The notes under the pieces are model-generated. The model saw nothing but the letters and a program-made list of their open reading frames with translations, searched no databases and was not told the origin of the DNA. Position numbers and translations under genes: made by a program. DNA of 64,000 bases from Lignipirellula cremea (GTDB lineage: Bacteria; Planctomycetota; Planctomycetia; Pirellulales; Pirellulaceae). Within the stretch, counting starts at the first letter, position 1. Every line of letters begins with the position of its first letter. Below are positions 1,338 through 18,437 of this stretch, one piece after another. The stretch is from contig NZ_CP036433.1 in NCBI RefSeq assembly GCF_007751035.1, positions 5,933,001-5,997,000 on the forward strand. The letters run 5' to 3'.

Positions 1338-1348
1338 AAATGGACGTC

Positions 1349-1427
1349 ACTCGCCCGACGCGCCAGCGAGAGAACGCAGAACGTCGCCGACGAGGAATCC
1401 CTCTCTGGCGCGTCGGGCTCGTGTGAC
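1349..1427. repeat. Palindromic repeat, copy A (intergenic)
   Basis: Arms CGCCCGACGCGCCAGCGAGAG (about 1352-1372) and CTCTCTGGCGCGTCGGGCTCG (1401-1421) are imperfect inverted repeats enclosing about 28 bp. It lies between the first DUF1501 gene and the following DUF1552 gene. Three further copies with the same arms occur at 2890, 8726 and 12359, all in the first 12.5 kb. Read on the minus strand it would encode TSPTRQRG, a peptide I recall from many planctomycete hypothetical proteins. Confidence 0.8.
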
Positions 1428-1466
1428 AAACGTCATCCGTGGCGAAAGGCAAAAGGAGAAACCCGC

Positions 1467-2852
1467 ATGAATACGAATGTGTTGAACATGTTGACCCCCG
1501 ATGATCTTGACCGTCGCACGTGCCTGAAAGGCATCTCGCTCGGCGCGGGGGCAGTCGTGTTGCAGCCGTTCGTCAACGCCCTGGCGGCCGAGGCGGCCGG
1601 CGAGGCTCCACCGCTGCGGGTCGTCTTCTTGATGCAAGGCAACGGGCTTTGGCCACACCACGTGCAGCCCAAAGGAGTCGACCGGCAGCAGGCAGATCGT
1701 CTGATCGACCTGCCGCTGGCCGAGTTGGAATTGCCGGAACCGATTGCGGCACTCGAGCCGTTTAAGAATCGGCTGGGGATCATCCAGAAGCTGTCGCACA
1801 AGATTTCCGGCGGCGGCGACCACGGCAAGCATTATGGTGCCCTCGGCTGTTTCAATTGGCGGCGCGGTCCGCTCGCGCAGACGATCGACCACGCGATCGC
1901 GGGGGCGCAGCCGAGCGTCATACCGGTCGTTGGCCTGGGCGTGGAGGGATCGCCGGAGGCAGTTGTCGTCAACACGGTGTCGGCCATCGGCCCCAAACGC
2001 CCGCAGCCGATGATCTGTCAGCCGGACGTGGCGTTTCAGTCGCTGTTCGGCAGCGTGGCGGAAGGCAACGTAGGCAAGGTGTTCCAGGCGCGGAACACAC
2101 TGCTCGACTGGATTCGCTCCGACATCAAGCGGGTCGAGCGGTCACTGCCCGCGATGGACCGCGAGAAGCTGGACGTCTACCTCGACACCTTCGAACAGAT
2201 GCGGACGCGGCAGGATCAGATCGCGACGATGAAGGACGGGCTGAAGGCCAACGTGCCGGCGATCGACAAGTTCAACAGCCAGCTCGCGACCGAACGGTTC
2301 GAGGCTCAGAACGCGATTGCGGCGGCGGCGATTGCGTCTCGGCTGACGAACGTGGTGAATCTCGATGCGTCGGGCGTCGCGTACTACACCTGGAAGGAAC
2401 TCGGCGTGATGACCGACGGCCACGCCATCGGCCACATGCATCCGGATCAGCCGGAGCGCGACAAGCTCTGCATCCCGATCCGCAAGTTCCACGCCGAGCG
2501 GATCGCCGACATCGCCCGACGGCTCGACGCGGTGAAGGAAGGCAACGGTACGGTGCTCGACAACACGCTGATCGTCTGGATGAGCGATTCGGGGGAAGAG
2601 CACCACGGCTTTTGTGCGGAGTGGCCGCTGGTAACGCTGGGCAATCTCGGCGGGCGATTGAAGACGGCCGGGCGGTTCCTGCAATTCCCGGCCTACCAGG
2701 AGGAAGCGAAGGAAACAGCGAACCGGACCGTTCGCAATTTTTACCTGGCCTTGCTCCACGCCGTGGGAGACAAGCGAGAGCAGTTCGGCGAGCTGGACCC
2801 GAAAATGCGGGCCGCCGCTCAAGCCGGGCCGCTGGCAGAAGTGTTGGCATAG
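1467..2852 (+). CDS. DUF1552 family protein, variant type
   Basis: 461 residues, ATG preceded by AAGGAG at a normal distance. A twin-arginine-like leader (LDRRTCLKGISLGAGAVVL, about residues 13-31) indicates Tat export or anchoring. The rest matches DUF1552: VVFLMQGNGLW, a repeated helical region with MDREKLDVYLDTFEQM near residue 230, a C-terminal LDNTLIVWMSDSGEEHH and GNLGGRLKTAGRFLQFP. The motif that gives the family its name (HxxSHH) is altered here to HAIGHMH near residue 317, as in the other variant copies at 10909 and 45015. Followed after 17 bp by a DUF1549/1553 gene, so the two are probably co-transcribed. Activity unknown. Confidence 0.92.
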   Translation: MNTNVLNMLTPDDLDRRTCLKGISLGAGAVVLQPFVNALAAEAAGEAPPLRVVFLMQGNGLWPHHVQPKGVDRQQADRLIDLPLAELELPEPIAALEPFKNRLGIIQKLSHKISGGGDHGKHYGALGCFNWRRGPLAQTIDHAIAGAQPSVIPVVGLGVEGSPEAVVVNTVSAIGPKRPQPMICQPDVAFQSLFGSVAEGNVGKVFQARNTLLDWIRSDIKRVERSLPAMDREKLDVYLDTFEQMRTRQDQIATMKDGLKANVPAIDKFNSQLATERFEAQNAIAAAAIASRLTNVVNLDASGVAYYTWKELGVMTDGHAIGHMHPDQPERDKLCIPIRKFHAERIADIARRLDAVKEGNGTVLDNTLIVWMSDSGEEHHGFCAEWPLVTLGNLGGRLKTAGRFLQFPAYQEEAKETANRTVRNFYLALLHAVGDKREQFGELDPKMRAAAQAGPLAEVLA

Positions 2853-2869
2853 CCAGAAAGTAACTCGCC

Positions 2870-4552
2870 ATGTGCAATCACGAAGAATCACGCCAACCCA
2901 ACGCGCCAGCAAGGGATCCGCGTTTCGCCAGCCCGGCAATTGGGGCGCTCGTTCCCTTGCTTGCGCTGCGGGCTAGTGTGCTCTGCATCGTTTTCCTCTT
3001 GCCGACGCTCACTCGGGGCCAGGACGGGGCGTTACGTGACACGATCGATCGCGAAGTCAAAGCGGCCTGGGCGAAGGATAATCTCGCAGCGCCGGAGCGA
3101 TCGACGGACTCGGTGTTTCTGCGGCGAATCTATCTCGACCTGGTGGGCATGATTCCGACGTACGAAGAGGCGACTGCGTTTCTGGGCGACGCCGATCCGC
3201 AGAAGCGAGAAAAACTGATCGACAAGCTGTTGGCCGATCCGCGGTACGCGCGCAACCAGGCTCAGGTGTGGGACGTGAACCTGCTGGGCCGCAATCCGCA
3301 GGGCATCCGTTCGACCAACCGGGATGCTTTTCGCAACTGGCTGGCGACGCACTTCGAGCAAAACGTGCCGTACGATCGCATCGTCCACAAACTGTTGAAG
3401 GCCGAGGAGGACAACTCGAAGTTGTTCTACGTGGCCTATCGAAACTCGGACGATTTGACGACCACCGCGATGCGGTTCTTTCTCGGCACCCAGTTGCAAT
3501 GCGCCAAATGCCACGATCACCCGTACGAGTCCTGGACGCAGCAGGATTACTACGGCATGGCTGGGTTCTTTGTACGCACTTACGTTGTCGAAACCGACGG
3601 CGCGAATGAGCACATCAAAAAATTCTATGTCGGCGAGAAGAGCACGGGCGACGTCAGTTTCACGGTTCTTCCGAAAGACGCCCAGCCGGGCACGAAGGGC
3701 GAGCCGGTCAAGCCGAGATTCCTGGGGGGCGAGGAACTGCAAGAGCCGGAACTGCCGGCCGACTTCAAAGAACCGAAAGTGGAACCCAAGCAAGCTCCGC
3801 CCAAACCGCTATTCTCGCGCCGTGAAAAGATCGTCGAGTGGATCACTGCCAAGGATAACCCGTATCTCGCGCGGGCGGCGGTGAATCGAATTTGGGCCCA
3901 GTTCATGGGCCGCGGGTTCGTCCATCCGGTCGATGATTTCAATTCGGAAAATGATCCAAGCCATCCCGAATTGCTCAAAGCGATCGAGGCGGGGTTCATC
4001 GCCCACCAGTTCGATCTGAAATGGCTCATTCGCGAAATCGTCAACAGCGCGGCGTATCAGGCCGCGGACGTCGGCCCGGTCACGGATGCGTTACCGAAGT
4101 ATTACGAAAGGGCCCGGATTCGCCCGTTGAGCGTCGAAGAGTTGACGGCATCACTCCACATTGCCACCGGGCTCGGCGTCGAAGCGGCACTGAAGAGCAA
4201 GCCGTCCGGGGACATGTTGAAGTATCTCGGCGACCCGACCGACGGCCAGGGCAGGTTTCAGGGAAGCCTGACGGAGCACCTGTTCATTCACAACGGGGAC
4301 ACGTTTCGCGGACTGTGTTACCCACGCAACGGCAACCTGGCCGAGACCCTGCTCAAGAGCGAAGAGGACTGGAACGCCAAGGTCGAGCGGATGTTTTTGT
4401 CGGTTTTGAGCCGGACGCCGACCACCGAAGAGCGAGAGCGGTTTGTCAATTATCTGAACGTCGATCCAAAAGACACGAAGCTCGAATCACAACGAATGGA
4501 AGAGGCGCTGTGGGTGCTCGTGGCGACTTCGGAGTTTCGGTTTAGTCGATAA
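2870..4552 (+). CDS. DUF1549/DUF1553 (PSCyt2-PSD1) exported protein
   Basis: 560 residues. The N-terminus contains a translated palindromic repeat (about residues 8-37) running straight into a hydrophobic export signal (RASVLCIVFLLPTLTRGQ). The PSCyt2 domain begins near residue 65 (SVFLRRIYLDLVGMIP) and contains the haem-type motif CAKCHDHP near residue 207. The PSD1 domain begins near residue 315 (SRREKIVEWITAKDNPYLAR, then NRIWAQFMGRGFVHPVDDF) and ends with LVATSEFRFSR. There is no N-terminal PSCyt1 domain with its own CxxCH, unlike many relatives. PSCyt2-PSD1 proteins are almost always encoded beside a DUF1501 gene, and one follows here after 57 bp. It is presumably a periplasmic redox or binding partner of that protein; this role is inferred from context only. 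Confidence 0.92.
   Translation: MCNHEESRQPNAPARDPRFASPAIGALVPLLALRASVLCIVFLLPTLTRGQDGALRDTIDREVKAAWAKDNLAAPERSTDSVFLRRIYLDLVGMIPTYEEATAFLGDADPQKREKLIDKLLADPRYARNQAQVWDVNLLGRNPQGIRSTNRDAFRNWLATHFEQNVPYDRIVHKLLKAEEDNSKLFYVAYRNSDDLTTTAMRFFLGTQLQCAKCHDHPYESWTQQDYYGMAGFFVRTYVVETDGANEHIKKFYVGEKSTGDVSFTVLPKDAQPGTKGEPVKPRFLGGEELQEPELPADFKEPKVEPKQAPPKPLFSRREKIVEWITAKDNPYLARAAVNRIWAQFMGRGFVHPVDDFNSENDPSHPELLKAIEAGFIAHQFDLKWLIREIVNSAAYQAADVGPVTDALPKYYERARIRPLSVEELTASLHIATGLGVEAALKSKPSGDMLKYLGDPTDGQGRFQGSLTEHLFIHNGDTFRGLCYPRNGNLAETLLKSEEDWNAKVERMFLSVLSRTPTTEERERFVNYLNVDPKDTKLESQRMEEALWVLVATSEFRFSR
2890..2980. repeat. Palindromic repeat, copy B, inside the DUF1549/1553 gene
   Basis: Left arm ACGCGCCAGCAAGGGATC (2901-2918) pairs imperfectly with TTCCCTTGCTTGCGCTGCGG (about 2952-2971). 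It is in frame and translated as part of the N-terminal 40 residues, supplying residues directly before and within the start of the hydrophobic export signal. It is more diverged than copies A and C, suggesting an older insertion that now serves as coding sequence. Confidence 0.72.
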
Positions 4553-4609
4553 GTTACAAGTCGAGATTTGCAAGTTCCACGTTGCGAACCAAGAAGATCG
4601 GAGGAAAGT

Positions 4610-5920
4610 ATGAATCCAAATCAACAATCTTCAGCTTTTAACTTGCAACCTGGAACTTGCAACCTGCAACACCACCTCAGCCGCCGCCAATTGCTCAAAG
4701 GCACGGTCGTCACGGCGGGCGGAATGGCGGTCGCGAATTGGGGTGCGCTGTTCCACTCGCAAACGATCGCGGCCGAGGCCAGGCGGACCGGCAAGCGCTG
4801 CATCATGCTTTACATGGAGGGCGGCGTAAGCCAGATCGACACCTTCGATATGAAGCCTGACCGACCGACCGCCGGTGAATTTCGCCCGGTGCAGACCAAG
4901 ATCCCCGGCATCCAGGTTTGCGAATTTCTGCCGAACATAGCACGCCACGCCGACAAGCTCGCGATCATTCGCAGCATGCGAACGAAAACGCCCGATCACG
5001 GCCCCGGCGGCTATTACATGCACACGGGTTACCATCCGAGCGAGCGTTTTCCGCACCCCGAAGCCGGCGCGATGATCGCTAAGTACTGCGAAAACCCGGA
5101 AAGCGACCTGCCGAGCTTCGTCAAAATCGGGAGCAGCAGCGGCATCTACGGAGCGGGTTATCTTGGCCCGCAGTACGATCCGTTCGTCCTGGGTGACGAC
5201 GGTCGGCTTCCGGGGTTCGCCAATCCTTCCGTAGCGCCGGAGATTCAGAGCCGGCGCGGCGAGCTGCTGAGCTTCATGGAACAGCGATTCGCCGAGCAGC
5301 GTCCCGGTGATCCATTCGCGTCACACCGCACGGCTGAATTGAGGACGATCCGCCTGATGCGAGCCCGCCAGACGTTTGACGTCAGCGCCGAGTGGGAAAA
5401 GGCCAAAGACCGTTACGGCGACACTCAGTTCGGCCGCGGTTGTTTCACGGCCCTGAAGCTCGTCGAGGCTGGCGTATCGTTCGTGGAGGTCGGGCATGCC
5501 GGCCACGACACTCACATGAACAACTTCCCCATCTCCAAGGCGCTTTACTCGACCATGGATCCTGCTTGGGGTTCGCTTCTGGACGACCTGACGCAGCGTG
5601 GCCTGTTACAGGACACGCTGGTCGTGTGGACGAGCGAGTTCGGCCGTACGCCGGCGATCAACGTCCGAGCGGGCCGGGATCACTTTGGCCGAGCGTGGAC
5701 GGTCGTCCTGGCCGGCGGCGGCATCAAGGGTGGTCAGCATTACGGTTCCACCGACCCCGATGGCTTCGAGGTCGCGGAGAATCCGGTCAGCGAAGCGGAC
5801 TATATCGCGACCATCTACAAGGCGATGGGCGTCGACCATCGGGCCAAGCACTATCTTGGCACACGCCCGATCTGGGCCACGGCGGAAGGGTCCAAGCCGA
5901 TTGAGGAGTTGTTGGGATAG
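4610..5920 (+). CDS. DUF1501 family protein
   Basis: 436 residues from the ATG at 4610, chosen because GGAGGAA lies immediately upstream (4600-4606); an upstream in-frame ATG at 4568 lacks this signal. A twin-arginine leader (LSRRQLLKGTVVTAGGMAV, about residues 23-41) follows a repeat-derived N-terminal tail. DUF1501 motifs: MEGGVSQIDTFDMKP, IPGIQVCEFLP, the histidine segment TPDHGPGGYYMHTGYHPS, GHAGHDTHMNNFP, and TSEFGRTPAINVRAGRDHF. The paired histidines and aspartates in the last two segments fit the metal-site layout of the alkaline-phosphatase-like fold. It directly follows the DUF1549/1553 gene, the standard family pairing. Substrate unknown. Confidence 0.92.
   Translation: MNPNQQSSAFNLQPGTCNLQHHLSRRQLLKGTVVTAGGMAVANWGALFHSQTIAAEARRTGKRCIMLYMEGGVSQIDTFDMKPDRPTAGEFRPVQTKIPGIQVCEFLPNIARHADKLAIIRSMRTKTPDHGPGGYYMHTGYHPSERFPHPEAGAMIAKYCENPESDLPSFVKIGSSSGIYGAGYLGPQYDPFVLGDDGRLPGFANPSVAPEIQSRRGELLSFMEQRFAEQRPGDPFASHRTAELRTIRLMRARQTFDVSAEWEKAKDRYGDTQFGRGCFTALKLVEAGVSFVEVGHAGHDTHMNNFPISKALYSTMDPAWGSLLDDLTQRGLLQDTLVVWTSEFGRTPAINVRAGRDHFGRAWTVVLAGGGIKGGQHYGSTDPDGFEVAENPVSEADYIATIYKAMGVDHRAKHYLGTRPIWATAEGSKPIEELLG
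4641..4670. repeat. Short direct repeat coding for the N-terminal tail of DUF1501
   Basis: ACTTGCAACCTG occurs at 4641-4652 and again at 4655-4666, followed by a partial third unit. It is translated as part of residues 11-20, just before the twin-arginine motif. Degenerate related text (ACAAGTCGAGATTTGCAAG) lies at 4556-4575, upstream of the start codon. Repeats of this kind recur in planctomycete genomes as I remember them, but I cannot verify copy number here. Confidence 0.6.
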
Positions 5921-5926
5921 AGATAG

Positions 5927-5996
5927 GTAGAACGGGTCTCCAGGCCCGTCTCGATGTTATGTCATGATGAGCGACGGGCCTGGAGACCCGTCCTAC
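5927..5996. repeat. Long inverted repeat between DUF1501 and WD40 genes
   Basis: The 19-bp arm ACGGGTCTCCAGGCCCGTC (5932-5950) is perfectly complementary to GACGGGCCTGGAGACCCGT (5973-5991), with outer GTAG/CTAC bases also pairing. The loop is about 22 nt and no U-tract follows, so it is not a classical terminator. A shorter hairpin with the same GTAGGACGGGC/GCCCGTCCTAC ends lies at 14154-14181. This is probably a mobile palindromic spacer that could act in mRNA processing or attenuation. Confidence 0.85.
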
Positions 5997-6014
5997 AACC
6001 TGAATTCAACGACC

Positions 6015-7118
6015 ATGAACGACTTCGCTGATGCCAAAGTGATTTTAACGCTCCCCTGGAATAGCGACGTGGTTTCCGCCGTTGCGTTCATCGGCAACGA
6101 CAAAGTCGCGGCCGCCAACCGACGCGGCGACATCTTGATCTGGAACCTACCCGCGCCGGGCGACAAGAGCCCCGATCCGGTGCGGCGGCTGGTCGGACAC
6201 ACCCGCGCGATCAATTGCCTCCTACTCAGTCCCGACGGCAAGACGCTGATCTCCGCGGGTAACGATCGGACCGTGAAATTCTGGGACGCCGCGCTGACCA
6301 CCGGCGAACCGGGTCAGGCCGTCCTGAATGACGGCGTCGTGCGCAAAGATCAAGGCGGCACGATGGGGCTGAACAAGATTTCGGATCCACCGCCGCCCGT
6401 CACGGCAAACGTGGTCGTGCAAAAGCCGCTCCGCGAACTGACGGCGCACCAAGACTGGATCTGGGGCCTCGCCCTCTCCCGTGACGGCAAAACGTTTGTC
6501 ACGGGCGACGACTCCCGCGAGGTGATCGTATGGGACGCGCAGACAGGCGCTCAGCAGCATCGCTGGAAGACGAAGCTGTGGGTTCGCGCGCTGGACATCT
6601 CTCCGGACGGCAAGACAGTGGTAACTGCGGAGAATTTCCCCCAGTTGAAGTTCTCAGAAAAAGATGCAGGCGTGCGCGGCTGGGATGCCGAGTCCGGTGA
6701 GCTGAAGTTCGACGTAAGCGAAGAGCTTAAGTTGGGTATGGCCGCGGTTCGATTCTCCGACGACGGCAAACACCTGGCGATCTGCCAGGGCAACATCGAC
6801 CGGGAAGGTGAGGCGGGGAAAGTGTTCCTGCTTGATCCCCAGACCGGTAAGACGCTCCGCGAATTGAAGCCGCCGCACTTTCGCGGGGCTACGGATCTCG
6901 CCTTCCACCCGGACGGCCAGCACCTCTTCACATCCGGCCGCGACCGACTTGTGAAAATCTGGCGGCTGAGCGACGGGGAACTGGTCCGCGACCTGGGCGA
7001 GCAAAACAAAGGGCAAAGTGAACCGTTGTACGCAATTTCGATTACCCCCGACGGCAAGCTTCTGGCCGCGGCCGATGGTACAGGGCAGATTTTGATTTAT
7101 TCGTTGATGGCCACTTGA
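6015..7118 (+). CDS. WD40-repeat protein
   Basis: 367 residues from the ATG at 6015. An upstream in-frame ATG at 5964 falls within the inverted repeat and is unlikely to be used. About seven beta-propeller blades are visible, each ending in an FWD/VWD/IWR-like tryptophan, for example GKTLISAGNDRTVKFWD, GKTFVTGDDSREVIVWD and GQHLFTSGRDRLVKIWR. No signal peptide is obvious, so it may be cytoplasmic, unlike its neighbours. Its TGA stop overlaps the earliest possible start of the next gene, indicating translational coupling within the locus A operon. WD40 propellers act as protein-binding platforms; the partner here is unknown but is plausibly one of the adjacent gene products. Confidence 0.9.
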   Translation: MNDFADAKVILTLPWNSDVVSAVAFIGNDKVAAANRRGDILIWNLPAPGDKSPDPVRRLVGHTRAINCLLLSPDGKTLISAGNDRTVKFWDAALTTGEPGQAVLNDGVVRKDQGGTMGLNKISDPPPPVTANVVVQKPLRELTAHQDWIWGLALSRDGKTFVTGDDSREVIVWDAQTGAQQHRWKTKLWVRALDISPDGKTVVTAENFPQLKFSEKDAGVRGWDAESGELKFDVSEELKLGMAAVRFSDDGKHLAICQGNIDREGEAGKVFLLDPQTGKTLRELKPPHFRGATDLAFHPDGQHLFTSGRDRLVKIWRLSDGELVRDLGEQNKGQSEPLYAISITPDGKLLAAADGTGQILIYSLMAT

Positions 7119-7120
7119 AT

Positions 7121-10100
7121 ATGCACAGAAACGGACGCGCGATGATGCGGAAAATGACCCTTAGCTTGTACTGCCTCTTGTTCTGCATCGGATCGCTCTG
7201 CGCCGAAGACACGAATCAGTTTCAACAACTCACCGTCGAACAGGCCCAAGCGCTGGCCCAGGACAAGAGCGGCAGACTGTTGCTCGACGGGCTGAAATCG
7301 TTGTCGCCCGAGGTGGCAACGGAATTGGCGCGGCATGAAGGGTGGCTGTCGCTGAACGGTTTGACCACCATTTCGGATGAGGCCGCCGCGGCGCTCGCGC
7401 AACACAAGCGTGCGTTGCATCTGAACGGTCTCACGAAGATCTCCGACGCGACGGCCGTAGCGCTGGCCTCGCATCGCAGCGAGTTGTCACTCAATGGTTT
7501 GACAGCGATCTCGGATGAGGCGGCCAAGGCGCTGGCGCGGCACACCGGCGGGCGGCTGTTTCTTAACGGACTGACAATGCTGTCCGGCGAGGCGGGTAAG
7601 GCTCTGGCGAAGCGCAACGGAGGCGGGCCGTCGTTTGCAGTGTCGTTGGAGGGGCTGACCTCGCTGTCGCACGAAGCGGCCGCGGCTCTGGCGGACTCCC
7701 ACGGTCACAACTGGCAAGGCCGTTTACCCGCGTTCAAAACGGTTTCGGTCGAGGTGGCCCAAGCATTTGCGAAGGAGGGGGCGAACATCCGTTCGATGCC
7801 GGGGCTGACGACGATCTCCGACGAGGCGGCCCGATTGCTGCTGCCGAAAATTGGTGGCAATTTGCCGGTTCTCAAAACGCTCTCGCCCGAAGCCGCCAAA
7901 GCGCTGGCACAGGCTCGCGGGTCTCTAGTCCTTAACAGTTTGACGAACCTTTCCGGCGAGACGGCCAAGGCGCTGACCGAAAACGCTCAAAACCGGGGCG
8001 ATCTGTATCTGAACGGCCTGACGGCGGTCACGCCGGAGACGGCGCGGGCCATCTGCCGGCGCGAAGGGGATCTGTATCTAAACGGGCTGACGTCGATCCC
8101 GATCGAAGTACTGAAGGCGCTCGCCGAACACAAATCGCCGGGCTATGCCAAGCCCGTTGTCCATCTCGACGGTCTGACTACGCTTTCCGACGAAGCGGCG
8201 GCGGTGCTCGCGTCATGGGAGAAATGGAGCGGCGAACTGCCTGCGCTGACGGCGATTTCGGAACCGTCGGCGACGGCTTTGGCGACGTCGCGGAAGTTCC
8301 AAGGCAACCTCCCGTCGCTCAAGAAACTTTCGCCGGAAGTGGCCCGCGCGCTCGCCCAGCGGAAGGGAAATCTGTCGCTCGACGGCCTGACAAGCCTGTC
8401 AGACGAGGTTGCTGCGGCGCTGGCGAAACATCAGGGTGGAACACTCTCGCTGGGTGGTCTGACGAACCTGTCGGACAGCGCGGCCGCGGCGCTCGCCAAG
8501 CACAACGGACGTTTATCACTCGGCCGCCTGATAACGCTTTCCAATGGCGCAGCCCAAGCGCTGGCCGGGTACAAGGGCGACTGGCTCATGCTCGACGGCT
8601 TGACCAGTCTGTCGGACGACGCGGCGAAAGCGCTGGCGCAGCGGCATGGCGTGCTGTCCGTTGTCGGCCTGAAAACGCTCTCGGATGAGGTGGCCCAGAT
8701 GCTGCAAGCCAATCCGATGATCATCACTAGCCCGACGCGCCAGCGAGGGAATGTGGCGCACGGGAATGCGGCGGACAGTTCCCCTCGCTCGCGCGTCGGG
8801 CTGGTGTCCGATGAAAAGTTCGTCCGCTCATTCTTTGCCTCTCACTGTGCCGACTGCCACGATGACGGCGCCAATGAGGGTGAATTCGAACTGAAGAAAC
8901 TCGCCAGCGACGACGTCACCGGCCGTGTCGCGTATGCGTCAATCTTCGAGCGGCTTCGCGCGGGGGACATGCCACCGCCGTCGGAACCAAGGCCGAAGGC
9001 GGACGCCGTGGCCAAGGTGGTGGACTGGATCGCGGCGAAACTCGACTCGCCGCTCCCCGCGCCGCCCACGTACTACGCCGTCAAGGAAAAACCGGTCGAT
9101 GGCAACCGGTTGCCCAACGCGATCTTGTTCGGCGGGCCGCGCGGGCCGAGCGTCCCGCCACCGCCGCGGCTCTGGCGGCTCTCGCCCGAAGCCTACAGCA
9201 CCTGGGCGGCATCCACGTTCAACGTCCACGGGTTGCAGCAGCCGTTCGGTTTGATCCAGGAAGCCGGCTTCCGCGACTTTTCCGCCCTCTACGCGCCCGA
9301 CGAAGGCGCAACCGGCCTGCTGTTGTCCAATGCGGAACAGATCGTGGCGGCTCAGGTCCGCGGCCATCAATTAGTGAACGTGAACGAGACGCCGGAGGCG
9401 GCCAAGGAGCAACTCTGGCCAGGCGAAGGTCGCATCCAGACCGCCAGCCAGGCCGAGCAACAAATACTGAGAAGCGGGTTACGGGTTCGGCAAGGCAACG
9501 GCGTCTTTGCGCCGCTCATGCATCCGGACGTGAAAGCCAACGAGGACGAATTGAAGCGGGCCATCTCGCAACAATATCAAACCGCTCTGGCCCGCCCGCC
9601 GAGCGAGCAAGAATTGGCAAGCGTGGTTGCGCTCTACAACGAGATCGCTGCCGACGGGGATTGCTCGATTGCCGGCAAGACCGTCCTGATGGCGCCGCTG
9701 ATGGTCCCAGAAGTGATCCTCCGCTTCGAGGTCGGTTTGGGCGCTGAGGTACGGCCGGGCGTGCGCATGCTCTCGCCACGCGAAACGGCCATGGCGCTCA
9801 GTCTGGCGCTGTCGCGAAAACGTGACCCCGGCCTGCTGGGCGCCGCCGCCGAGGGCAAGCTCACGACAAGAGAAGAAGTCGCCGCGACCCTCCAACGCAT
9901 CCTGGAAGAGCCGCGGATTGAGAAGTCGCGCGTGGTGTGGTTCTTCCGCGAATACTTCGACTACTACCGCGCTCCCGACGTGTTCAAAGACCCGCTGCCC
10001 GATTATTTGACACGGCGCGGCGCGTACTACAATCCGCGAGGCTACGTCGACGACACCGACGTGTTGGTCATGAGCATTCTGGCCAGTGACCGGGATGTGC

Positions 10101-10912
10101 TCAAGCAACTGCTGACGACGACCGAGTCATTCCACACGCATGAGTTGTTTGTCCCAAATGGCACGCTGGACGATCTTCGCTACGCGGACAGTCCGCTCTT
10201 TCGTCCGTTCAGTCCCCTGGCGTCGGATCACCGCCGCGAGCAGCAAGGGGAGCGCATCGGCGTCCTGATGCAGCCGAGTTGGAACGTGGCATGGTCGACA
10301 AATTTCCACAACGACATCGTCCGCCGCGGCCGCTGGGTGCGCGAACATCTGCTGGGCGGGCGGGTGCCCGATCTGCCGATCAACGCGGCCGCCATGATTC
10401 CCGACGATCCGCACCACACGCTGCGCCAGCGGCAGATGGTCACGCGGGCCGCCGAGTGCTGGAAGTGCCATCACAAGATGGACGAACTGGGGCTGCCGTT
10501 CGAGAACCTCAACCACTACGGCTTCGCGCGGAACGCCGAAGAAGTGCTCGACCTGGAGGCGATGGAGCAGAGCGGCAATAAGGACGCCAAGATCTACCGC
10601 GACGCCCCGCTGGACACGACCGGGTTCATCCGGAACAGCGGCGACCCGGCGCTCGACGGACCGGTCCGCGACGCCCCCGAGATGCTCCGCCGGTTGGCCG
10701 AATCCGACCGCGTGCGGCAGATCTTCATTCGCCACGTCTTCCGCTACTTCCTCGGCCGCAACGAAACCCCCGGCGACGCGGTCAGCCTGCAAGAATCCGA
10801 ACAGGCGTATCTCGACGACGGCGGCAGCTTCAAGGCGCTGCTGGTCTCGCTGTTGTCATCCGAATCATTCCTTTACCGAACTGTACCGTCGATTACCAAG
10901 GCCCCCCAATGA
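7121..10912 (+). CDS. LRR-like repeats fused to a PSCyt-DUF1588-DUF1585 protein
   Basis: About 1260 residues. Start uncertain: TTG at 7115, or ATG at 7121 or 7142; all give a signal peptide (KMTLSLYCLLFCIGSLCAED). Residues about 30-530 are some twenty 23-24-residue units of the form LxLxGLTxLSDEAAxALAxHxG, a leucine-rich variety. An in-frame palindromic repeat (8726-8808) encodes the linker. Then comes a cytochrome-like domain with HCADCHDDG (about residue 577) and MPPP, followed by a DUF1592-like middle region. CWKCHHKMDELGLPFE near residue 1113 marks DUF1588, and FIRHVFRYFLGRNE to the C-terminal SSESFLYR marks DUF1585. The corresponding C-terminal protein at 40999 lacks the repeats, which are encoded there by a separate LRR gene. 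The next gene starts within its stop codon. Confidence 0.88.
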   Translation: MHRNGRAMMRKMTLSLYCLLFCIGSLCAEDTNQFQQLTVEQAQALAQDKSGRLLLDGLKSLSPEVATELARHEGWLSLNGLTTISDEAAAALAQHKRALHLNGLTKISDATAVALASHRSELSLNGLTAISDEAAKALARHTGGRLFLNGLTMLSGEAGKALAKRNGGGPSFAVSLEGLTSLSHEAAAALADSHGHNWQGRLPAFKTVSVEVAQAFAKEGANIRSMPGLTTISDEAARLLLPKIGGNLPVLKTLSPEAAKALAQARGSLVLNSLTNLSGETAKALTENAQNRGDLYLNGLTAVTPETARAICRREGDLYLNGLTSIPIEVLKALAEHKSPGYAKPVVHLDGLTTLSDEAAAVLASWEKWSGELPALTAISEPSATALATSRKFQGNLPSLKKLSPEVARALAQRKGNLSLDGLTSLSDEVAAALAKHQGGTLSLGGLTNLSDSAAAALAKHNGRLSLGRLITLSNGAAQALAGYKGDWLMLDGLTSLSDDAAKALAQRHGVLSVVGLKTLSDEVAQMLQANPMIITSPTRQRGNVAHGNAADSSPRSRVGLVSDEKFVRSFFASHCADCHDDGANEGEFELKKLASDDVTGRVAYASIFERLRAGDMPPPSEPRPKADAVAKVVDWIAAKLDSPLPAPPTYYAVKEKPVDGNRLPNAILFGGPRGPSVPPPPRLWRLSPEAYSTWAASTFNVHGLQQPFGLIQEAGFRDFSALYAPDEGATGLLLSNAEQIVAAQVRGHQLVNVNETPEAAKEQLWPGEGRIQTASQAEQQILRSGLRVRQGNGVFAPLMHPDVKANEDELKRAISQQYQTALARPPSEQELASVVALYNEIAADGDCSIAGKTVLMAPLMVPEVILRFEVGLGAEVRPGVRMLSPRETAMALSLALSRKRDPGLLGAAAEGKLTTREEVAATLQRILEEPRIEKSRVVWFFREYFDYYRAPDVFKDPLPDYLTRRGAYYNPRGYVDDTDVLVMSILASDRDVLKQLLTTTESFHTHELFVPNGTLDDLRYADSPLFRPFSPLASDHRREQQGERIGVLMQPSWNVAWSTNFHNDIVRRGRWVREHLLGGRVPDLPINAAAMIPDDPHHTLRQRQMVTRAAECWKCHHKMDELGLPFENLNHYGFARNAEEVLDLEAMEQSGNKDAKIYRDAPLDTTGFIRNSGDPALDGPVRDAPEMLRRLAESDRVRQIFIRHVFRYFLGRNETPGDAVSLQESEQAYLDDGGSFKALLVSLLSSESFLYRTVPSITKAPQ
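8726..8808. repeat. Palindromic repeat, copy C, coding for an interdomain linker
   Basis: Left arm AGCCCGACGCGCCAGCGAGGG (8729-8749) and right arm CCCTCGCTCGCGCGTCGGGCT (8782-8802) form a near-perfect stem. The whole element stays in frame and is translated, beginning ITSPTRQRGNVAHG and ending SRVGLVSDEK. It lies exactly between the last LRR-like unit and the cytochrome-like domain. The arms are better preserved than in copies B and D, suggesting a more recent insertion, or one at the point where two genes fused. Confidence 0.85.
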
Positions 10913-12315
10913 GCCTCTCAAACACCACACTCAAAATGGTCACATCAGATCAACTGGACCGACGTTCGGTTCTCAAAGGCGTCTCACTCGGCGCGGGTGC
11001 GGTGGTACTGCAGCCGTTTTTGAACGCGCTGGCGGCCGAGGCGAGGGGCGAAGCGCCGCCGCCGCGGATCGTCTTCGTTGTCGAGGCCAACGGACTGTGG
11101 GACCACCACATCCGTCCGCAGACGCTCGGTAAGGCTGGCGCGTGGAACAGCCCGTTGGACAAACTCGTCGATGTGCCGCTGGCGGGACACGCTCTGCCCG
11201 AGCCGATCGCCCCCCTGGCGGCGTTCAAGGACCGGATGTCGGTTGTGCTGGGTTTGTCCAGTAAGCATGTCACTCCGAACCACGGCGGCGGATATGGAGT
11301 ATTCAATTGCTGCACGCAAGGTCAGGGCACACACCATGCGGTCCACACGCAGACGATCGATCACGCGCTGGCGGCGACGTCGGCAAACGTCATTCCGGTG
11401 GTCGGGTTAGGCGTTTCCGCATCCGCCGACAGGGTCTTCGCCAATTGGCTGTCGGTGAGTGAGCCGATGCGGCCGCTGCCGTTCATCTGCCAGCCAGAGG
11501 TTGCCTTCCGCATGCTCTTTGGCAGCGTGGCGGAAGGGGAAGCGGGGAAGCTCTACCAAGCGAGAAACAAGTTGCTGGACTGGTGCCGCTCCGACATCCG
11601 GCGCGTGCGGGACGCTCTGCCGCAGATGGACCGCGAAAAGCTAGACGTATACCTCGACACGTTCGAGCAGATGCGGTCGCGGCAACAGAAGCTCAGCGAC
11701 ATCAAGGACCGCTTGCAGGCCAACCTGCCCGCTCTCGACAAATTCGACTGCAAGCGGACGACCGGCCGCTTCGAGGCGCAATGCTCCGTTGCGGTGGCGG
11801 CGTTGGCTTCGCGACTAACAAACGTGGTCGTGATCGACACGGCCTGTGGCTACCAGGGGTATCACATCTGGAAGGACCTTGGGGTCACTCTGGACGGCCA
11901 CTCCATCGGCCACATGGCGGGCCAACCGGATCGCGAGAAGCATGCCGTGCCGGTCCGGCGGTTCTATGCCGAACGGGTCGTCGATCTCGCCCAGCGAATG
12001 GCCGCCATCAAGGAAGGCAACGGCACGCTGCTCGACAACTCGCTCATCATCTACTTGAGCGACGCGGCCGAGGAGCACCACGGGACGGGTCAGCAATGGC
12101 CGATGGTGCTAGTCGGGAATCTTGGCGGGCGACTGAAGACGGCGGGGCGCTTCCTGCAGTTCCCCGGGTACAACAAGGCCGGCCACCGGACGATGTCCAA
12201 CTTCTTCCTGTCGCTGCTGCACGCCGTCGGCGACAAACGCGAAAAGTTCGGCGAACCCGACCGCGAGCTTGCGGACATCGACATTGCCGGGCCACTGGCG
12301 GAGATTCTGGCTTAG
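10909..12315 (+). CDS. DUF1552 family protein, variant type
   Basis: 468 residues. The ATG overlaps the TGA of the preceding cytochrome protein (ATGA), so the two are translationally coupled. Twin-arginine-like leader LDRRSVLKGVSLGAGAVVL (about residues 16-34). It is strongly similar in layout to the protein at 1467: VVEANGLWDHHI, MDREKLDVYLDTFEQM, LDNSLIIYLSDAAEEHH and NLGGRLKTAGRFLQFPG. The family motif is again altered (HSIGHMAGQ). The short gap of 10 bp to the SUMF1-like gene suggests continued co-transcription. It is probably exported and acts with the LRR-cytochrome protein; activity unknown. Confidence 0.92.
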   Translation: MSLSNTTLKMVTSDQLDRRSVLKGVSLGAGAVVLQPFLNALAAEARGEAPPPRIVFVVEANGLWDHHIRPQTLGKAGAWNSPLDKLVDVPLAGHALPEPIAPLAAFKDRMSVVLGLSSKHVTPNHGGGYGVFNCCTQGQGTHHAVHTQTIDHALAATSANVIPVVGLGVSASADRVFANWLSVSEPMRPLPFICQPEVAFRMLFGSVAEGEAGKLYQARNKLLDWCRSDIRRVRDALPQMDREKLDVYLDTFEQMRSRQQKLSDIKDRLQANLPALDKFDCKRTTGRFEAQCSVAVAALASRLTNVVVIDTACGYQGYHIWKDLGVTLDGHSIGHMAGQPDREKHAVPVRRFYAERVVDLAQRMAAIKEGNGTLLDNSLIIYLSDAAEEHHGTGQQWPMVLVGNLGGRLKTAGRFLQFPGYNKAGHRTMSNFFLSLLHAVGDKREKFGEPDRELADIDIAGPLAEILA

Positions 12316-12325
12316 CAGGACGAAC

Positions 12326-13420
12326 ATGGCGAATTCGATCGAGTCACCTTTCGACGTACACCAGCCCGACGTGCCAGCGAGCGGGCCGGATGTTTCCTTG
12401 CTTGCGAAGCGGGCTGGTGTCATTTGCGCCGCTGTTACTTTCGTCTTGGCGATGATCCTGGATGCCCATGCTGCCGAATCGCTCGACACGAAGGAGATCA
12501 AGAACAGTCTGGGCATGAAGCTCGTGTACATCCCGCCCGGAAAGTTCACGATGGGCTCGCCTGAAACGGAACCGGGCCGCGAGGAACAGGAAACTCCGCA
12601 CGAGGTGGAGCTGACCAAAGGTTTTTACCTGGGGGCCTACGAGGTCACGGTTGGTCAATTCAAACAGTTTGTTGCCGATACGAAGTTTCAGACCGACGGC
12701 GAACATGACGGCAAAGGCGGTTGGGGCGTGAACGAAGCGGGATCGATCGAAGTTAAGGGGAAGTACACCTGGAAATCTCCGGGCTTCAAGCAAAGCGATG
12801 ACCATCCCGTGGTGCTGGTGAGCTGGAGCGACGCGAAGGCATTTTGCCGCTGGTTAAGCGACAAAGAGAAGAAAGAATACCGGTTGCCTACCGAAGCCCA
12901 GTGGGAGTACGCGTGCCGGGCGGGAACGCAAACAGCCTACACGTTCGGAAATGATCCCCAGCCGTTGCAGGTGTTTGCAAATATCGGCGATCGGCCGGCG
13001 GGAAATCCCAAAGACGGCTACCACCAGGCGGCCCCGGTCGGTCGATTCAAACCGAACGCCTTTGGCCTGTACGACATGCATGGGAACGTGTGGGAATGGT
13101 GCGAGGACCGGTACGTCGCGAATTCCTACAGACCGGAAAAGCAGACGGATCCATCCGGACCCACGTCTGGCAATGCCCGGGTGCAGCGCGGCGGCGGTTG
13201 GTCGAGCGCCGCAAGCCGCTGCCGCTCCGCCGCCCGTATTGGACGCGATTTGGTGGCCTACCGCGGAAGCTACCAGGGCTTCCGCGTGGCGTTGGTGCAA
13301 GCCGCTGCCGGGGCACCCAGGGAATCAGGAGCCGCCCGGGAAAAGCGCGCCGGCGGACGTGTGGCCTACATGCTGCTCGTCAACGGCGCGGTGACCGACG
13401 CCGTCGTTAAAACCGCGTAG
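12326..13420 (+). CDS. SUMF1/FGE-like domain protein, C-terminus truncated by TAG
   Basis: 364 residues from the ATG at 12326, behind CAGGACGA. The N-terminus contains palindromic repeat copy D directly before an export signal (VICAAVTFVLAMILDAHAAES). Residues about 55-330 form a formylglycine-generating-enzyme-like (SUMF1) domain: NSLGMKLVYIPPGKFTMGS, DEVT-type YEVTVGQFKQF, YRLPTEAQWEYACRAG, YDMHGNVWEWCED and RVQRGGGWSSAASRCRSAAR. In true FGE this last segment carries two catalytic cysteines; here the first is Ser and only the second Cys remains, so sulfatase activation is unlikely. After residue 335 the frame enters the start of an SGNH-like domain and is stopped by TAG at 13418-13420, while the same frame continues to be homologous downstream. 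Confidence 0.85.
   Translation: MANSIESPFDVHQPDVPASGPDVSLLAKRAGVICAAVTFVLAMILDAHAAESLDTKEIKNSLGMKLVYIPPGKFTMGSPETEPGREEQETPHEVELTKGFYLGAYEVTVGQFKQFVADTKFQTDGEHDGKGGWGVNEAGSIEVKGKYTWKSPGFKQSDDHPVVLVSWSDAKAFCRWLSDKEKKEYRLPTEAQWEYACRAGTQTAYTFGNDPQPLQVFANIGDRPAGNPKDGYHQAAPVGRFKPNAFGLYDMHGNVWEWCEDRYVANSYRPEKQTDPSGPTSGNARVQRGGGWSSAASRCRSAARIGRDLVAYRGSYQGFRVALVQAAAGAPRESGAAREKRAGGRVAYMLLVNGAVTDAVVKTA
12359..12420. repeat. Palindromic repeat, copy D, inside the SUMF1-like gene
   Basis: Arms ACCAGCCCGACGTGCCAGCG (12359-12378) and CTTGCTTGCGAAGCGGGCTGGT (12398-12419) are imperfect inverted repeats. The element is in frame and contributes about residues 12-31, ending where the hydrophobic export signal begins. 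Its position before a signal peptide parallels copy B. Confidence 0.7.
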
Positions 13421-14157
13421 GTCGAAGGCCACAAGAGCGTGAACCCACCGTATGTCGGCACCTGGCATTCGTTCCTCAAAGGGATGGATTCGATTCAGAA
13501 AGGCCGACTCGATCCGGTCGAGCGGGGCGAAATCGACGTGATGCTGATCGGCACGCTGTTGTGCTATCCCAACGCCGAAACCTGGAAGAATCACCTGGGC
13601 CCCAACGACTCGACGCTGGCGGGCCTCGCGGCTCTTGGCGTCAAGAACAACCCGAAGTTCCGCATCGTTTGGCAGACGTACGTTTGGCCCGTGGGTCAGA
13701 TGCCGAAGGACGGTAAAAAGACGCTCGACGTGGCCGCCATGAAAAAACGGGCCGCCAATGAGCCGCTGAAAGAGTTGGAAAAGCTGGTCGATGCGATCAA
13801 CGAGAGGCACGGTCGGCAAGTCGTGCTGATTTCGCCGGTCGGTGTGGCCACGATCGAGCTGGTGGAGATGGTCGCCGACGGAAAGTTCCCCGGCATCACT
13901 GATCCGGCCGATCTGTGGACCGAGTTCAACAGGCACTCCAACCGGCACGTGCTGGCACTGACGTCGCCACGATGTACGGCGTCTCACCCGTGGGGCTGAA
14001 GCCGGACTTCTCGAAAGTCACGTACGGCGGCGGCGGAAAAAGCCCAGGCATTCAGTCGATGGAGGGCATCACCGACGAACAGCACGCCATCTTGCAGAAC
14101 ATCGCTTGGGAGACGGTATCGAAGTATCGGCATGCGGGTTTTGCGAACAACAAGTAG
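13421..14157 (+). pseudogene. Broken SGNH-like domain downstream of the SUMF1 gene
   Basis: The frame that ends at 13418-13420 continues without change after the TAG (VEGHKSVNPPYVGTWHSF) until about 13960. Homology then jumps to another frame (VATMYGVSPVGLKPDF, then EQHAILQNIAWETVSKY) and ends at TAG 14157. Both parts align with the two domains of the protein at 15703, which have AAGIEGHK, TSPVGLKIDRF and EQHAILQEIAWETVSKYPHAG at the same places. One nonsense change and one small deletion (near 13958-13966, where homologues have a few more residues) therefore disable what was once a SUMF1/SGNH-like fusion or a separate gene. The alternative, a recoding event, would require two independent signals. 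Confidence 0.75.
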
Positions 14158-14181
14158 GACGGGCACTCCTGCCCGTCCTAC
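14154..14181. terminator. Perfect 12-bp hairpin after the broken gene
   Basis: GTAGGACGGGCA (14154-14165), loop CTCC, TGCCCGTCCTAC (14170-14181). It overlaps the TAG of the broken SGNH-like frame. No T-run follows, so it is either a mobile palindrome related to the repeat at 5927 or an mRNA-stabilising stem between cistrons rather than a strong intrinsic terminator. Confidence 0.6.
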
Positions 14182-14205
14182 GACCATCCTCCCGGAGATT
14201 CATTC

Positions 14206-15666
14206 ATGAAGCGATTATTCAAATATTCGTTGCTGTTCCTCCTCGGCCTGCCGATGCTGCTTGGTCGCGAAATCGAGGCCCAAGGCGACGAACCTGCGAA
14301 ACCCAAAAAATGGCCCGGTGCCTGGGTGCCGGAAGGCAAACCGCTGCGGGGCTTCCTGCATTTCGACGGCAGGCAAGCGGGCAATCCCAAGCCTTGGCAG
14401 CCCTTCTGCCAGCGTCACGGACTGGTCTGGTTTCCCCACGGGCGTGATGGTGACGTAGCCGTATTGGATGAGAAATTTCGCGCGGAAGTCGCCGCGGAGC
14501 TGAATCATCCGGAACTCGTCAACGCTCCGGTGATCCGCGTGGGACTTTCATCGAACGGCGGGTTCACGATGCTGCTTGCTCAACAGCACCCGGATCGTAT
14601 GTTGGCGTGCGTGGCCCATCAGCCGTTGCCGCCCTGGGCCAAGCGAAATGAGAGCTTCCACTTCAACCGGAGGACCGAAACCAAGTCGTCGCTCGTGGGA
14701 ACGCCCCACGACATTTCGCAATCGTTCCGTGTGCCGTGCATCCAGCAAGCAGGCGAGAACGATTCGGTGTGCGGCACCATCATGGCGTATGGCCTCGACC
14801 GTTACGCTCGCAGCCAGAAAGCGCCGTGGACCTATTTCTGCCTGCCCCGTGGCGGACACGGCAACGTCGTCCCGAACGAGCTGTTGATGCCGTGGCTCGA
14901 CGGCGTCATCGCTCAGCGACTTCCGGCCGACGTCGATCTTTCCAAAGGACCGCCCAAGCTCAACGACATCCGGATCGAAGCCGGTTGGATGGCCAATCCG
15001 CACACTTTGGAAATCGCCGAGTATGCGAAATACGACGGCGATAAATCCCAGGCCACCTGGTTGCCGAATGAAGCGAGCGCCCTGGCATGGAAGAAGCTGG
15101 GCGTGGCCATGCCATTCGAACTCCCCGAGCAATCGGTACGGATGCCTTCCGGGCTGATCGACAAATTGGTGATCCACGATCCCAAGTCGAATCGGGTCGT
15201 GCCCTCCGATTTGGTCTATGGTGAGCCGTGGAAGATCGTCGCGAATCTGAAGCCGGGAGACGTGGGTTGGAAAATGTTTCCCAGCGCCGGTCCCGTGGCC
15301 GTGATCGGCAAGGTCCCCGAACTCGTTCGCGGCTGCGACTGGATCGTGGCCGATAATGCATCCCTGGCCTTTGCGGGCGACGTTCTGATGGAGTTTACCA
15401 TGACTGATAACGCAACGGTCTACGTTGCCCACGACGAGAAGCTCGCGAAGAAGCCCGCCTGGCTCGCGGACTGGAAGGACGCGGGGGAGTCGCTGCAGGC
15501 CGGCTATCTGGGGAATGAACGCAGCTTCCGGATCTTCGAGAAGTCGTTTCCCAAAGGGGCCACAGTCAAGCTCGGCCCGAACGGCACGAGTTTAGAGAAA
15601 CAGGAGAAGCCACAGTTGCAACCGTGGATTTACCTGACGATTGTAAAACCCCAGAAACAACAGTAA
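14206..15666 (+). CDS. Exported alpha/beta-hydrolase-like protein
   Basis: 486 residues, ATG behind CCGGAGATTC. Signal peptide MKRLFKYSLLFLLGLPMLLG. The first 250 residues look like an alpha/beta hydrolase: VIRVGLSSNGGFTMLLAQQHPDRM is a nucleophile elbow (Ser in GLSSNGG, near residue 111) followed by the usual helix. PRGGHGNVVPNELL near residue 220 could supply the catalytic histidine. The C-terminal half is beta-rich, with no motif I recognise. It fits the secreted esterase/lipase-like proteins common in planctomycete polymer-degradation loci. It lies between two SGNH-like genes on the same strand and probably in the same transcript. Substrate unknown. Confidence 0.72.
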   Translation: MKRLFKYSLLFLLGLPMLLGREIEAQGDEPAKPKKWPGAWVPEGKPLRGFLHFDGRQAGNPKPWQPFCQRHGLVWFPHGRDGDVAVLDEKFRAEVAAELNHPELVNAPVIRVGLSSNGGFTMLLAQQHPDRMLACVAHQPLPPWAKRNESFHFNRRTETKSSLVGTPHDISQSFRVPCIQQAGENDSVCGTIMAYGLDRYARSQKAPWTYFCLPRGGHGNVVPNELLMPWLDGVIAQRLPADVDLSKGPPKLNDIRIEAGWMANPHTLEIAEYAKYDGDKSQATWLPNEASALAWKKLGVAMPFELPEQSVRMPSGLIDKLVIHDPKSNRVVPSDLVYGEPWKIVANLKPGDVGWKMFPSAGPVAVIGKVPELVRGCDWIVADNASLAFAGDVLMEFTMTDNATVYVAHDEKLAKKPAWLADWKDAGESLQAGYLGNERSFRIFEKSFPKGATVKLGPNGTSLEKQEKPQLQPWIYLTIVKPQKQQ

Positions 15667-15702
15667 CCGGTACCCGGACCCACTTGAATCGGAAGGCTTT
15701 CG

Positions 15703-17538: not shown

Positions 17539-17729
17539 TCGACTCGCAATGCGCCCTGCACAATCTTCGCCCCGGCCGCATGGCACTCAAAACAGTGCTC
17601 GACCAGCACCGGACGAATCTTCGTTTCAAAAAATGTGAGCTGCTGCTTAGTGAATTCGCGAGGTTCATCGGCTTCGGCCCGTGAGACCAAACACGCCAGC
17701 GCCAACAGCAGGACTGCCAATCGATTCAT
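17223..17729 (-). pseudogene. Truncated PSCyt1 protein (N-terminal stub)
   Basis: Signal peptide MNRLAVLLLALACLVSRAEA, then a classic planctomycete PSCyt1 domain: FFETKIRPVLVEHCFECHAAGA (haem-type CxxCH), ALRVDHRAGLLRGGDSGPAI and EFEMPPKGKLADSVIRDFEAWI. A PSCyt2-PSD1 protein should continue for another 700 residues or more. Instead homology ends just after GRSFVSFQPFK, and the frame runs into the antisense of the plus-strand gene. Its ATG overlaps the stop of the GntR gene (ATGA), so the two were an operon. Clearly a remnant. Confidence 0.85.
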
Positions 17730-18430
17730 GACGTCTCCCTCGCTAAACGATCAAGCACGGCCTGCATGTGTTGCTGCATCGCGTCAGCGGCGGCATCCGG
17801 ATTGTGTTCTCGAACTGCCCGCAGAATCGCCTTGTGCAGTTTCCGCCCCAACGCGTTTTCCCGCTGCGACGGCGTGGTGCGAACCATCTGCGTGAGGACG
17901 AATTCGTAGATCACCTCGATCATGTTCTGCATCAGCGGATTGCCCGCGATATCAATCAACTTGCGATGGAAGGCAAAGTCCAGTTCGAGTGCTTCCGCAT
18001 AGGGCAAGTCCTCATCGTCGAGCTGCTTCAACAAAGCGGCAAGCTCGGCAACGTCGTCAACGGTGGCCAGTTCCGCGGCCTGCCGCGCAGCCTGTACTTC
18101 CATCGCCGTCCGCAGTTCGGCATAAGAGCGAAGTTCCTGCGGCGAAATCGTCACTGCGGATCGCAACAGCCGCACACAGTTGGTCAGACTGGTCCGATTC
18201 CCGACGAACGTGCCGCGTCCCCGCTGGATATCGAACAGCCCCATGCTCTGCAGTCGGGCCAACGCCTCGCGCAACACCGGACGACTCACCTTGAGCTGCT
18301 CGACGAGTTCATGCTCACCAGGGAGCCGCTCACCCGCTGACAAATTCTGGTCTTTGATGACCCCAGCAATCCGCCAGATCCGCCGTCGTCTGCCGTTCAA
18401 TTGCTTCAATCTGCATGAGCTCTTCTCCAC
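17726..18430 (-). CDS. GntR-family (FadR/FCD) regulator, N-terminus probably frameshifted
   Basis: 234 residues if started at GTG 18430. Winged-helix DNA-binding domain with AGERLPGEHELVEQLKVSRPVLREALARL and GRGTFVG, then an all-helical FCD ligand domain with LDFAFHRKLIDIAGNPLMQ and LGRKLHKAILRAVREHNPDAAADAM carrying metal-ligand-type residues. A better start, ATG 18416-18414, sits 8 nt after GGAG and reads MQIEAIERQTTADLAD, which looks like the real N-terminus, but that frame stops after 28 codons. Restoring one 5-bp CGGAT unit near 18367-18371 would join it to the GntR frame (DLADRIAGVIKDQN). The gene is therefore probably damaged, or is now translated from the weak GTG. Two palindromic operators lie upstream. 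Confidence 0.8.
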   Translation of the reverse strand: MEKSSCRLKQLNGRRRRIWRIAGVIKDQNLSAGERLPGEHELVEQLKVSRPVLREALARLQSMGLFDIQRGRGTFVGNRTSLTNCVRLLRSAVTISPQELRSYAELRTAMEVQAARQAAELATVDDVAELAALLKQLDDEDLPYAEALELDFAFHRKLIDIAGNPLMQNMIEVIYEFVLTQMVRTTPSQRENALGRKLHKAILRAVREHNPDAAADAMQQHMQAVLDRLARETS

Positions 18431-18437
18431 AACCGCA

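Follow-up and report, generated by a model that had tools for sequence, protein, structure and literature searches.

An in-frame palindrome of a planctomycete REP family encodes most of an interdomain linker in Lignipirellula cremea

In a stretch of 64,000 nucleotides of the Lignipirellula cremea genome (assembly GCF_007751035.1, contig NZ_CP036433.1, positions 5,933,001 to 5,997,000 of the forward strand; hereafter the window, whose coordinates are used unless genome coordinates are indicated), a palindrome lies in frame in a gene that fuses leucine-rich repeat (LRR)-like repeats to a cytochrome c-like domain, and it encodes most of the linker between the two parts. The palindrome at 8725-8806 is a REPIN, i.e. 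a pair of inverted 21-nt repetitive extragenic palindromic (REP) sequences, and belongs to a family that we refer to as the AGCCCG family. Combining the comparison of homologous genes with the distribution of the repeats and of their putative transposase, we suggest with considerable confidence that the REPIN landed in the linker of an already fused gene by means of a class-3-type transposase in a donor lineage, and that it probably reached L. cremea by passive import.

Results

The preliminary description of this DNA had placed a near-perfect palindrome at 8726-8808; the palindrome is present and the coordinates are good to within 2 bases. An inverted-repeat search identified two arms of 25 nt (8725-8749 and 8782-8806) that are 92% complementary and flank a 32-nt spacer. 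A 103-nt stretch around the arms is predicted to fold with -62.5 kcal/mol compared to a mean of -38.4 kcal/mol for shuffled sequences (z -7.4; none of 200 shuffles folds equally well), and for the bare element the z value is -7.6 with a predicted hairpin of about -60 kcal/mol. The single open frame 7115-10912 spans the element and reads it as TSPTRQRG...RVGLV; the insert peptide is TSPTRQRGNVAHGNAADSSPRSRVGLV, flanked by the LRR-like repeats and by SDEKFVRSFFASHCADCH, and it separates the repeat domain from the CxxCH domain. The in-frame palindromic linker is in this way confirmed, and the proposed kinship to an intergenic copy at 1349 is borne out by similar arms and by an element-wide identity of 73% (E 3e-5). 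GC-rich DNA makes many weak palindromes, and the inverted-repeat search listed 23 pairs. A chance palindrome of GC-rich coding DNA is nevertheless given practically no credence and was rejected on the grounds of the shuffles and of an arm sequence that is common to the family members and occurs far above the reversed-pattern control in REP-rich genomes. The features are listed in Table 1.

Table 1. Coordinates of the REP elements and of the parts of the fusion gene.
Feature	Position	Strand	Basis
In-frame REPIN, AGCCCG family; encodes most of the interdomain linker	8725..8806	+	Arms, fold, family pattern
Intergenic REPIN, AGCCCG family, between DUF1501 and DUF1552 genes	1348..1423	+	Arms, similarity
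Diverged AGCCCG-family REPIN in N-terminal codons of the DUF1549/DUF1553 gene 2870-4552	2889..2980	+	Arms, pattern
Diverged AGCCCG-family REPIN in N-terminal codons of the FGE-sulfatase-domain gene (open reading frame from 12326)	12358..12420	+	Arms, pattern
GTAG-family REP in the linker of the paralogue	L092:8724-8747 = G000:C1:21724-21747		Pattern
GTAG-family REPIN between DUF1501 and WD40 genes	5927..5996	+	Arms, pattern
GTAG-family REP palindrome with overlapping arms	14154..14181		Pattern
Fusion gene, 1265 amino acids	7115..10912	+	Single open frame; Pfam
Signal peptide and LRR-like repeats	about 7115-8720	+	By eye; "LRR-like" is a description, no Pfam match
Cytochrome c-like domain, Pfam Cytochrome_CBB3	about 8828-9031, residues 572-639	+	Match slightly under cut-off
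DUF1592, DUF1588, DUF1585	C-terminal to the cytochrome part of the fusion gene	+	Pfam, over cut-offs

In an alignment of homologues the ancestral linker comprises approximately 16 residues, and 27 REPIN-coded residues now stand in that position. As judged from this alignment, the REPIN replaced part of a pre-existing linker, with an estimated loss or overwriting of approximately 16 ancestral residues and a gain of 27. Because the ancestral linker was partly replaced, the exact insertion boundaries are not recoverable. Translation through the insert is predicted from the open frame. In an AlphaFold model in which the insert corresponds to residues 112-138 of the modelled stretch, pLDDT (predicted local distance difference test) values fall below 50 at residues 117-138, and this segment separates a confident repeat domain from a less confident helical cytochrome part; the alignment of 11 sequences, a predicted template modelling score (pTM) of 0.52 and other low segments in the same model temper this picture. 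The spacer encoded by the insert is probably disordered, and we can point to no function of the insert beyond that of a tolerated linker. A derivation of the 32-nt spacer of the REPIN from the old linker is unsupported: in local alignments with 13 of 14 other linkers, at least 10% of 500 shuffles matched as well. The L094 linker speaks the other way, with a match of 18 bases that none of 500 shuffles equalled (one of the 14 linkers).

Did the palindrome make the fusion? The preliminary description had raised this possibility, according to which the palindrome lay between a repeat-protein gene and a cytochrome gene and read-through of its frame fused the two. In its favor, the insert coincides exactly with the domain joint, which is modular in that the homologue L139 joins a signal-peptide-like start straight to the cytochrome part. 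The gene cluster is present a second time, in synteny, at 13-33 kb of the L. cremea genome, including a paralogous fusion gene (L092) that is 74% identical and has the same fusion and the same joint without the AGCCCG palindrome. Of the 19 close named GTDB loci (L121-L139, from a set of 44 in which the other 25 match only the cytochrome part, weakly), 18 are fused, as are three homologues from genome G113. These are 21 distinct fused genes in addition to the paralogue, with L093 and L134, which are the same contig, counted once; several of the 21 share a genome (three from G113, others from shared metagenome-assembled genomes (MAGs)), and L132, L137 and L138 are truncated by a contig start but retain the repeat part. 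A scan of the 45 codons upstream of CxxCH with up to 3 mismatches detected neither AGCCCG-family nor GTAG-family REPs (see below) at the joint in the 21 genes. The comparison of orthologues with and without the insert, which had been put forward as a check, thus gives an in-frame insert here and none in the 21 homologues or the paralogue, in which another REP is present. Because the paralogue and 21 distinct genes are fused at the joint without the AGCCCG palindrome, the fusion predates the insert; a role of the palindrome in making the fusion is extremely improbable, and we rejected it. Since L139 has the cytochrome part alone, the joint is a site of domain exchange that operates without palindromes. 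A further G113 open reading frame (L097, G113:C42; 1256 amino acids) apparently consists mostly of LRR-like repeats and has no cytochrome part in the alignment.

A gene split into two proteins in vivo is unlikely for two reasons: the paralogue and the homologues each have one continuous open frame, and a downstream half made separately would be without the N-terminal export signal (here read by eye) that a c-type cytochrome domain is expected to need. The very stable predicted hairpin, together with the reported effects of REPs on mRNA stability, which they raise, and on transcription in other bacteria (PMC6006769), could alternatively point to a regulatory RNA element that is kept by selection and acts inside the coding sequence by attenuation, pausing or processing. 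We consider this improbable: the hairpin is not conserved, with neither REP family at the joint in the 21 distinct genes, no Rfam family reaches its gathering score in window 1-20000, and no T-run follows the hairpin.

The linker of the paralogue contains GACGGGCAAGAATGCCCGTTCTAC, a REP of a second family that reads in frame as TGKNARST. The pattern for this GTAG family was built from the paralogue linker and the palindrome at 5927-5996, with the other strand read as a GTAG-tagged REP; it has 20 matches with up to 1 mismatch in the L. cremea genome compared to 0 for the reversed control, and because most of these lie elsewhere, the family is real beyond the sequences that define it. In both paralogues the linker REPs extend up to (A/S)DEKF, with which the cytochrome part starts. 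Two unrelated REP families occupy one linker in two paralogues.

With up to 2 mismatches allowed, at least one AGCCCG-family arm occurs in 78 of 147 genomes of the same order, L. cremea included, and at least 20 occur in 34 of the 147 (by hand count), with a maximum of 362 in one genome; the reversed pattern gives 0-2 matches per genome and strand. Across the phylum, exact matches to the arm pattern with three free positions were found in just 12 of 294 genomes, and the distribution is therefore patchy; one of the 12 lies outside the class and has 400 arms. The arm consensus from 200 distinct contexts is roughly ACTAGCCCG(A/C)(A/C)GCGCNAGCGAGGGA, and one arm by itself can fold into a hairpin. 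The search pattern did not constrain pair 4-20 of this hairpin; among the 200 contexts, 137 have C-G and 30 have A-T there (86% standard). Pair 5-19 is C-G in 182 and T-A in 4; the contexts are related sequences and these changes are not independent events, and the remaining stem positions were fixed by the search pattern save for 2 mismatches, so that their pairing proves nothing. Because a single arm can fold in this manner, as the pattern at pair 4-20 suggests, the unit is a 21-nt REP and the element at 8725-8806 a REPIN. In accordance with this, the family has inverted REP pairs with variable spacers and, in some genomes, many dispersed near-identical copies. Its consensus foot ahead of the CCC/GGG stem is ACTAG and not the canonical 5' foot GT[AG]G; since the hairpins of class 3 are reported to be atypical (PMC6006769), we file the family with the class 3 type and not with canonical GTAG repeats. 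An open reading frame of at least 220 codons runs through 9 of 56 distinct REP places (60 loci), and such frames in GC-rich DNA may be spurious; at L055, the sole one of the nine compared with Pfam, the frame matches RHS_repeat, and because just one arm is present this case may be a chance match.

In the REP-rich relative G018, arms flank the gene for a small HUH transposase. The transposase used as query scores 28.8 bits against PF01797 (cut-off 23) and 21.6 bits against NCBIfam REP_Tyr_transpos, under the cut-off of 80. Among 30 fetched loci from the matches of this transposase family, 19 have arms (82 arms in 100 kb), in 18 cases on both sides of the gene, whereas arms are found at none of 30 loci with best PF01797 (Y1_Tnp) matches (97 kb; drawn from 19 of 24 genomes picked as REP-rich or REP-poor) and at none of 29 control loci (113 kb). 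The Y----Q signature is found in 29 of the 30 transposases, and H-u-H by pattern in 27. By hand count, a transposase match is found in 26 of the 34 genomes with at least 20 arms compared to 34 of the 113 others. The link is not uniform: 11 of the 30 transposase loci are without arms and one has an arm on a single side, 4 of the 26 matches in REP-rich genomes have E values of only 7e-5 to 8e-4, and the eight REP-rich genomes without a match at E <=0.001, some of which are drafts, weigh against a strict REP-transposase link. As judged from these sequences, the transposase of the REP family fits class 3 TnpA-Y1.

In L. cremea itself, homologue search and tree revealed no member of the REP-flanked transposase clade: both class-3-type transposases of this genome fall, in a tree of 31 proteins, into a supported (96/99) clade of six rows without arms. 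Pattern searches detected no arms near the four Y1 genes of L. cremea, and the inverted repeats there are unrelated. A GTAG-family REP (1 mismatch) lies approximately 1.5 kb from the Y1 gene at genome position 3,580,739, a weak association given that 13 of 200 shuffles of the locus match at 3 mismatches.

Pattern searches of the L. cremea genome (9,565,229 bases, one contig) gave AGCCCG-family arm pairs at 8 places and only 12 arms at up to 2 mismatches; unpaired matches elsewhere are not more frequent than those of the reversed pattern. Seven of the 8 pairs lie at genome positions 5,912,671-5,945,415, i.e. in approximately 33 kb or 0.34% of the genome, and the same searches gave no match to the family in the syntenic paralogous cluster at 13-33 kb. 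In the copies at 2889-2980 and 12358-12420, each arm has 0-2 mismatches to a looser family pattern. A GTG at 2978, at the edge of the first of these, is a possible alternative start for the DUF1549/DUF1553 gene.

The comparison with the MAG UBA1662 adds a border to this picture. UBA1662 (L121:5379-9469) and window 2977-7107 share 86.5% DNA identity over 4,145 aligned bases, with 84-94% in sub-blocks of 300 bp except for 70% and 79% in two that have gene gaps; the syntenic left flank (a DUF1552 gene) is 63-77% identical, and the UBA1662 fusion gene, which lies at the other end of the contig, 60-79%. The block starts at the right edge of the REPIN at 2889-2980, and UBA1662 has no convincing counterpart of this REPIN or of the short gap that precedes the REPIN. 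A diverged arm pair of the AGCCCG family lies in the DUF1501/WD40 gap of UBA1662; the orthologous site in L. cremea holds the GTAG-family REPIN. This pair is the only one of the family found in the 4.4-Mb assembly and lies inside the same gene cluster. The AGCCCG-family copies thus track the gene cluster in two genomes.

At G000:C1:5,840,001-5,945,400 (L256, L257, L258, L025, L026 and window 1-12,400; G000:C1 is the L. cremea contig), many DUF1501/DUF1552/PSCyt-type paralogues stand side by side over approximately 100 kb, as judged by the look of their N termini, with Pfam matches only for the window genes and the L092 fusion gene. N termini that resemble translated dispersed repeats (e.g. NPKSEARNPKQIQMSKFQIQNADSG) are found at L258:4231-6543 and 8072-10858, L025:1160-3667 and 5211-8027, and L026:3920-5716, all on the minus strand; such a repeat may lengthen the n-regions of signal peptides or mislead start calls. 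Elsewhere in the window, a 27-nt inverted repeat without spacer and with 93% complementarity (47788-47841) belongs to neither REP family studied here.

Discussion

Combining these data, we suggest that the REPIN was put in place in trans, in a donor lineage, by a member of the REP-flanked transposase clade, and that the linker it entered had already become dispensable. The insert would have survived because the frame was kept without an in-frame stop and a probably disordered spacer was encoded. The REPINs would then have entered L. cremea passively with horizontally acquired pieces of the PSCyt/DUF1501/DUF1552 cluster. Passive import is the most likely route because no transposase of the REP-flanked clade was found and nearly all copies lie in one 33-kb stretch. 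That pieces of the cluster moved horizontally with the REPINs as passengers we regard as probable, with less assurance than the explanation as a whole.

Several observations weigh against import. Orphan copies are also expected if a native transposase was lost, the eighth arm pair lies at genome positions 5,179,978-5,180,033, outside the 33-kb stretch, and 5.84-5.945 Mb, although it stands out in tetranucleotide composition when 15 stretches of 20 kb serve as background, does so only to the same degree as the paralogous cluster; for this reason composition was dropped as proof of import. UBA1662 is a MAG that may or may not be a close relative of L. cremea, and soon after the block its sequence turns to N, so that the comparison of borders covers the left side. 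Its arm pair has 2 mismatches per arm and is missing from the inverted-repeat search list. The distant pair at 5.18 Mb and a composition on a par with that of the paralogous cluster would also fit a model in which a native transposase, since lost, inserted palindromes that survived mainly in the cluster, without any horizontal import. This alternative appears rather unlikely given that 7 of the 8 pairs are packed into 0.34% of the genome while the paralogous cluster at 13-33 kb is free of the family, that UBA1662 shows the same confinement, and that the block of 86.5% identity starts at the edge of a REPIN. We therefore favor insertion in a donor lineage followed by passive import.

At two sites one REP family is found in one copy and the other family in the other: in the fusion linker, for the gene and its paralogue, and in the DUF1501/WD40 gap, where L. 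cremea has its GTAG-family REPIN and UBA1662 the AGCCCG-family arm pair. A speculative and, in our opinion, doubtful extension of this observation is that the landing sites persist longer than the REPs themselves, so that unrelated families fill a small set of places in the cluster one after another. If true, one Y1 transposase system would insert into, or replace by recombination, the repeats of another, and REPIN edges would be recombination borders at which domains and genes are shuffled as the cluster moves between planctomycetes.

What remains noteworthy is that one joint was colonised twice and that the copies are confined to one gene cluster. The gene provides a documented planctomycete case, with insert-free homologues, of a mobile palindrome turned into coding sequence, and it separates the palindrome that became a linker from the palindrome that made a fusion. 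That two paralogues have unrelated REP families in one and the same linker suggests that REPs find natural refuges in interdomain linkers, and the restriction of the copies to a single gene cluster in both genomes suggests that REPs may be used as tracers of horizontally moved DNA.

The element itself belongs to an ordinary class of mobile palindromes in an unusual but precedented place. Class 3 TnpA-Y1 transposases carry a Y----Q signature, are reported mainly from Planctomycetes, Acidobacteria and Proteobacteria, and are flanked by high-copy atypical hairpins (PMC6006769); the Y----Q signature at 29 of 30 loci and the arms at 19 of 30 loci described here are similar. A 5' foot CnGA is given for the class 3 hairpins (PMC6006769), compared to ACTAG in the consensus here; the string CCGA, found inside many of our arms, may or may not correspond to that foot. 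The excerpts of PMC6006769 contain no description of class 3 repeats within genes, and in the literature searched, including these excerpts, we found no report of different REP families at one linker of paralogues; neither did the literature searched hold the peptide SPTRKRG.

The phenomenon of in-frame REPs is already known from published intragenic REPs (PMC3733652). In that work (Di Nocera et al. 2013), REP dimers in open reading frames encode 20-30 residues in many proteins, in many cases at N termini, flexible linkers are proposed in the discussion as tolerated REP sites, and GTAG families are reported in R. baltica. The intragenic REPs described there carry GTAG or CGTC tags, whereas the AGCCCG family carries neither. 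Different REPs at about one site in recB of X. campestris and X. oryzae (PMC3733652) are a precedent in orthologues for what is found here in paralogues of one genome. The likeness to the Rickettsia palindromic elements (RPEs) noted in the preliminary description holds and extends to the intragenic REPs of other bacteria (PMC3733652): in both, palindromes lie in frame in protein genes. The AGCCCG family is a different sequence family in a different host phylum, and RPE-1 is longer, while RPE-4 and RPE-6 are themselves CGTC REPs (PMC3733652).
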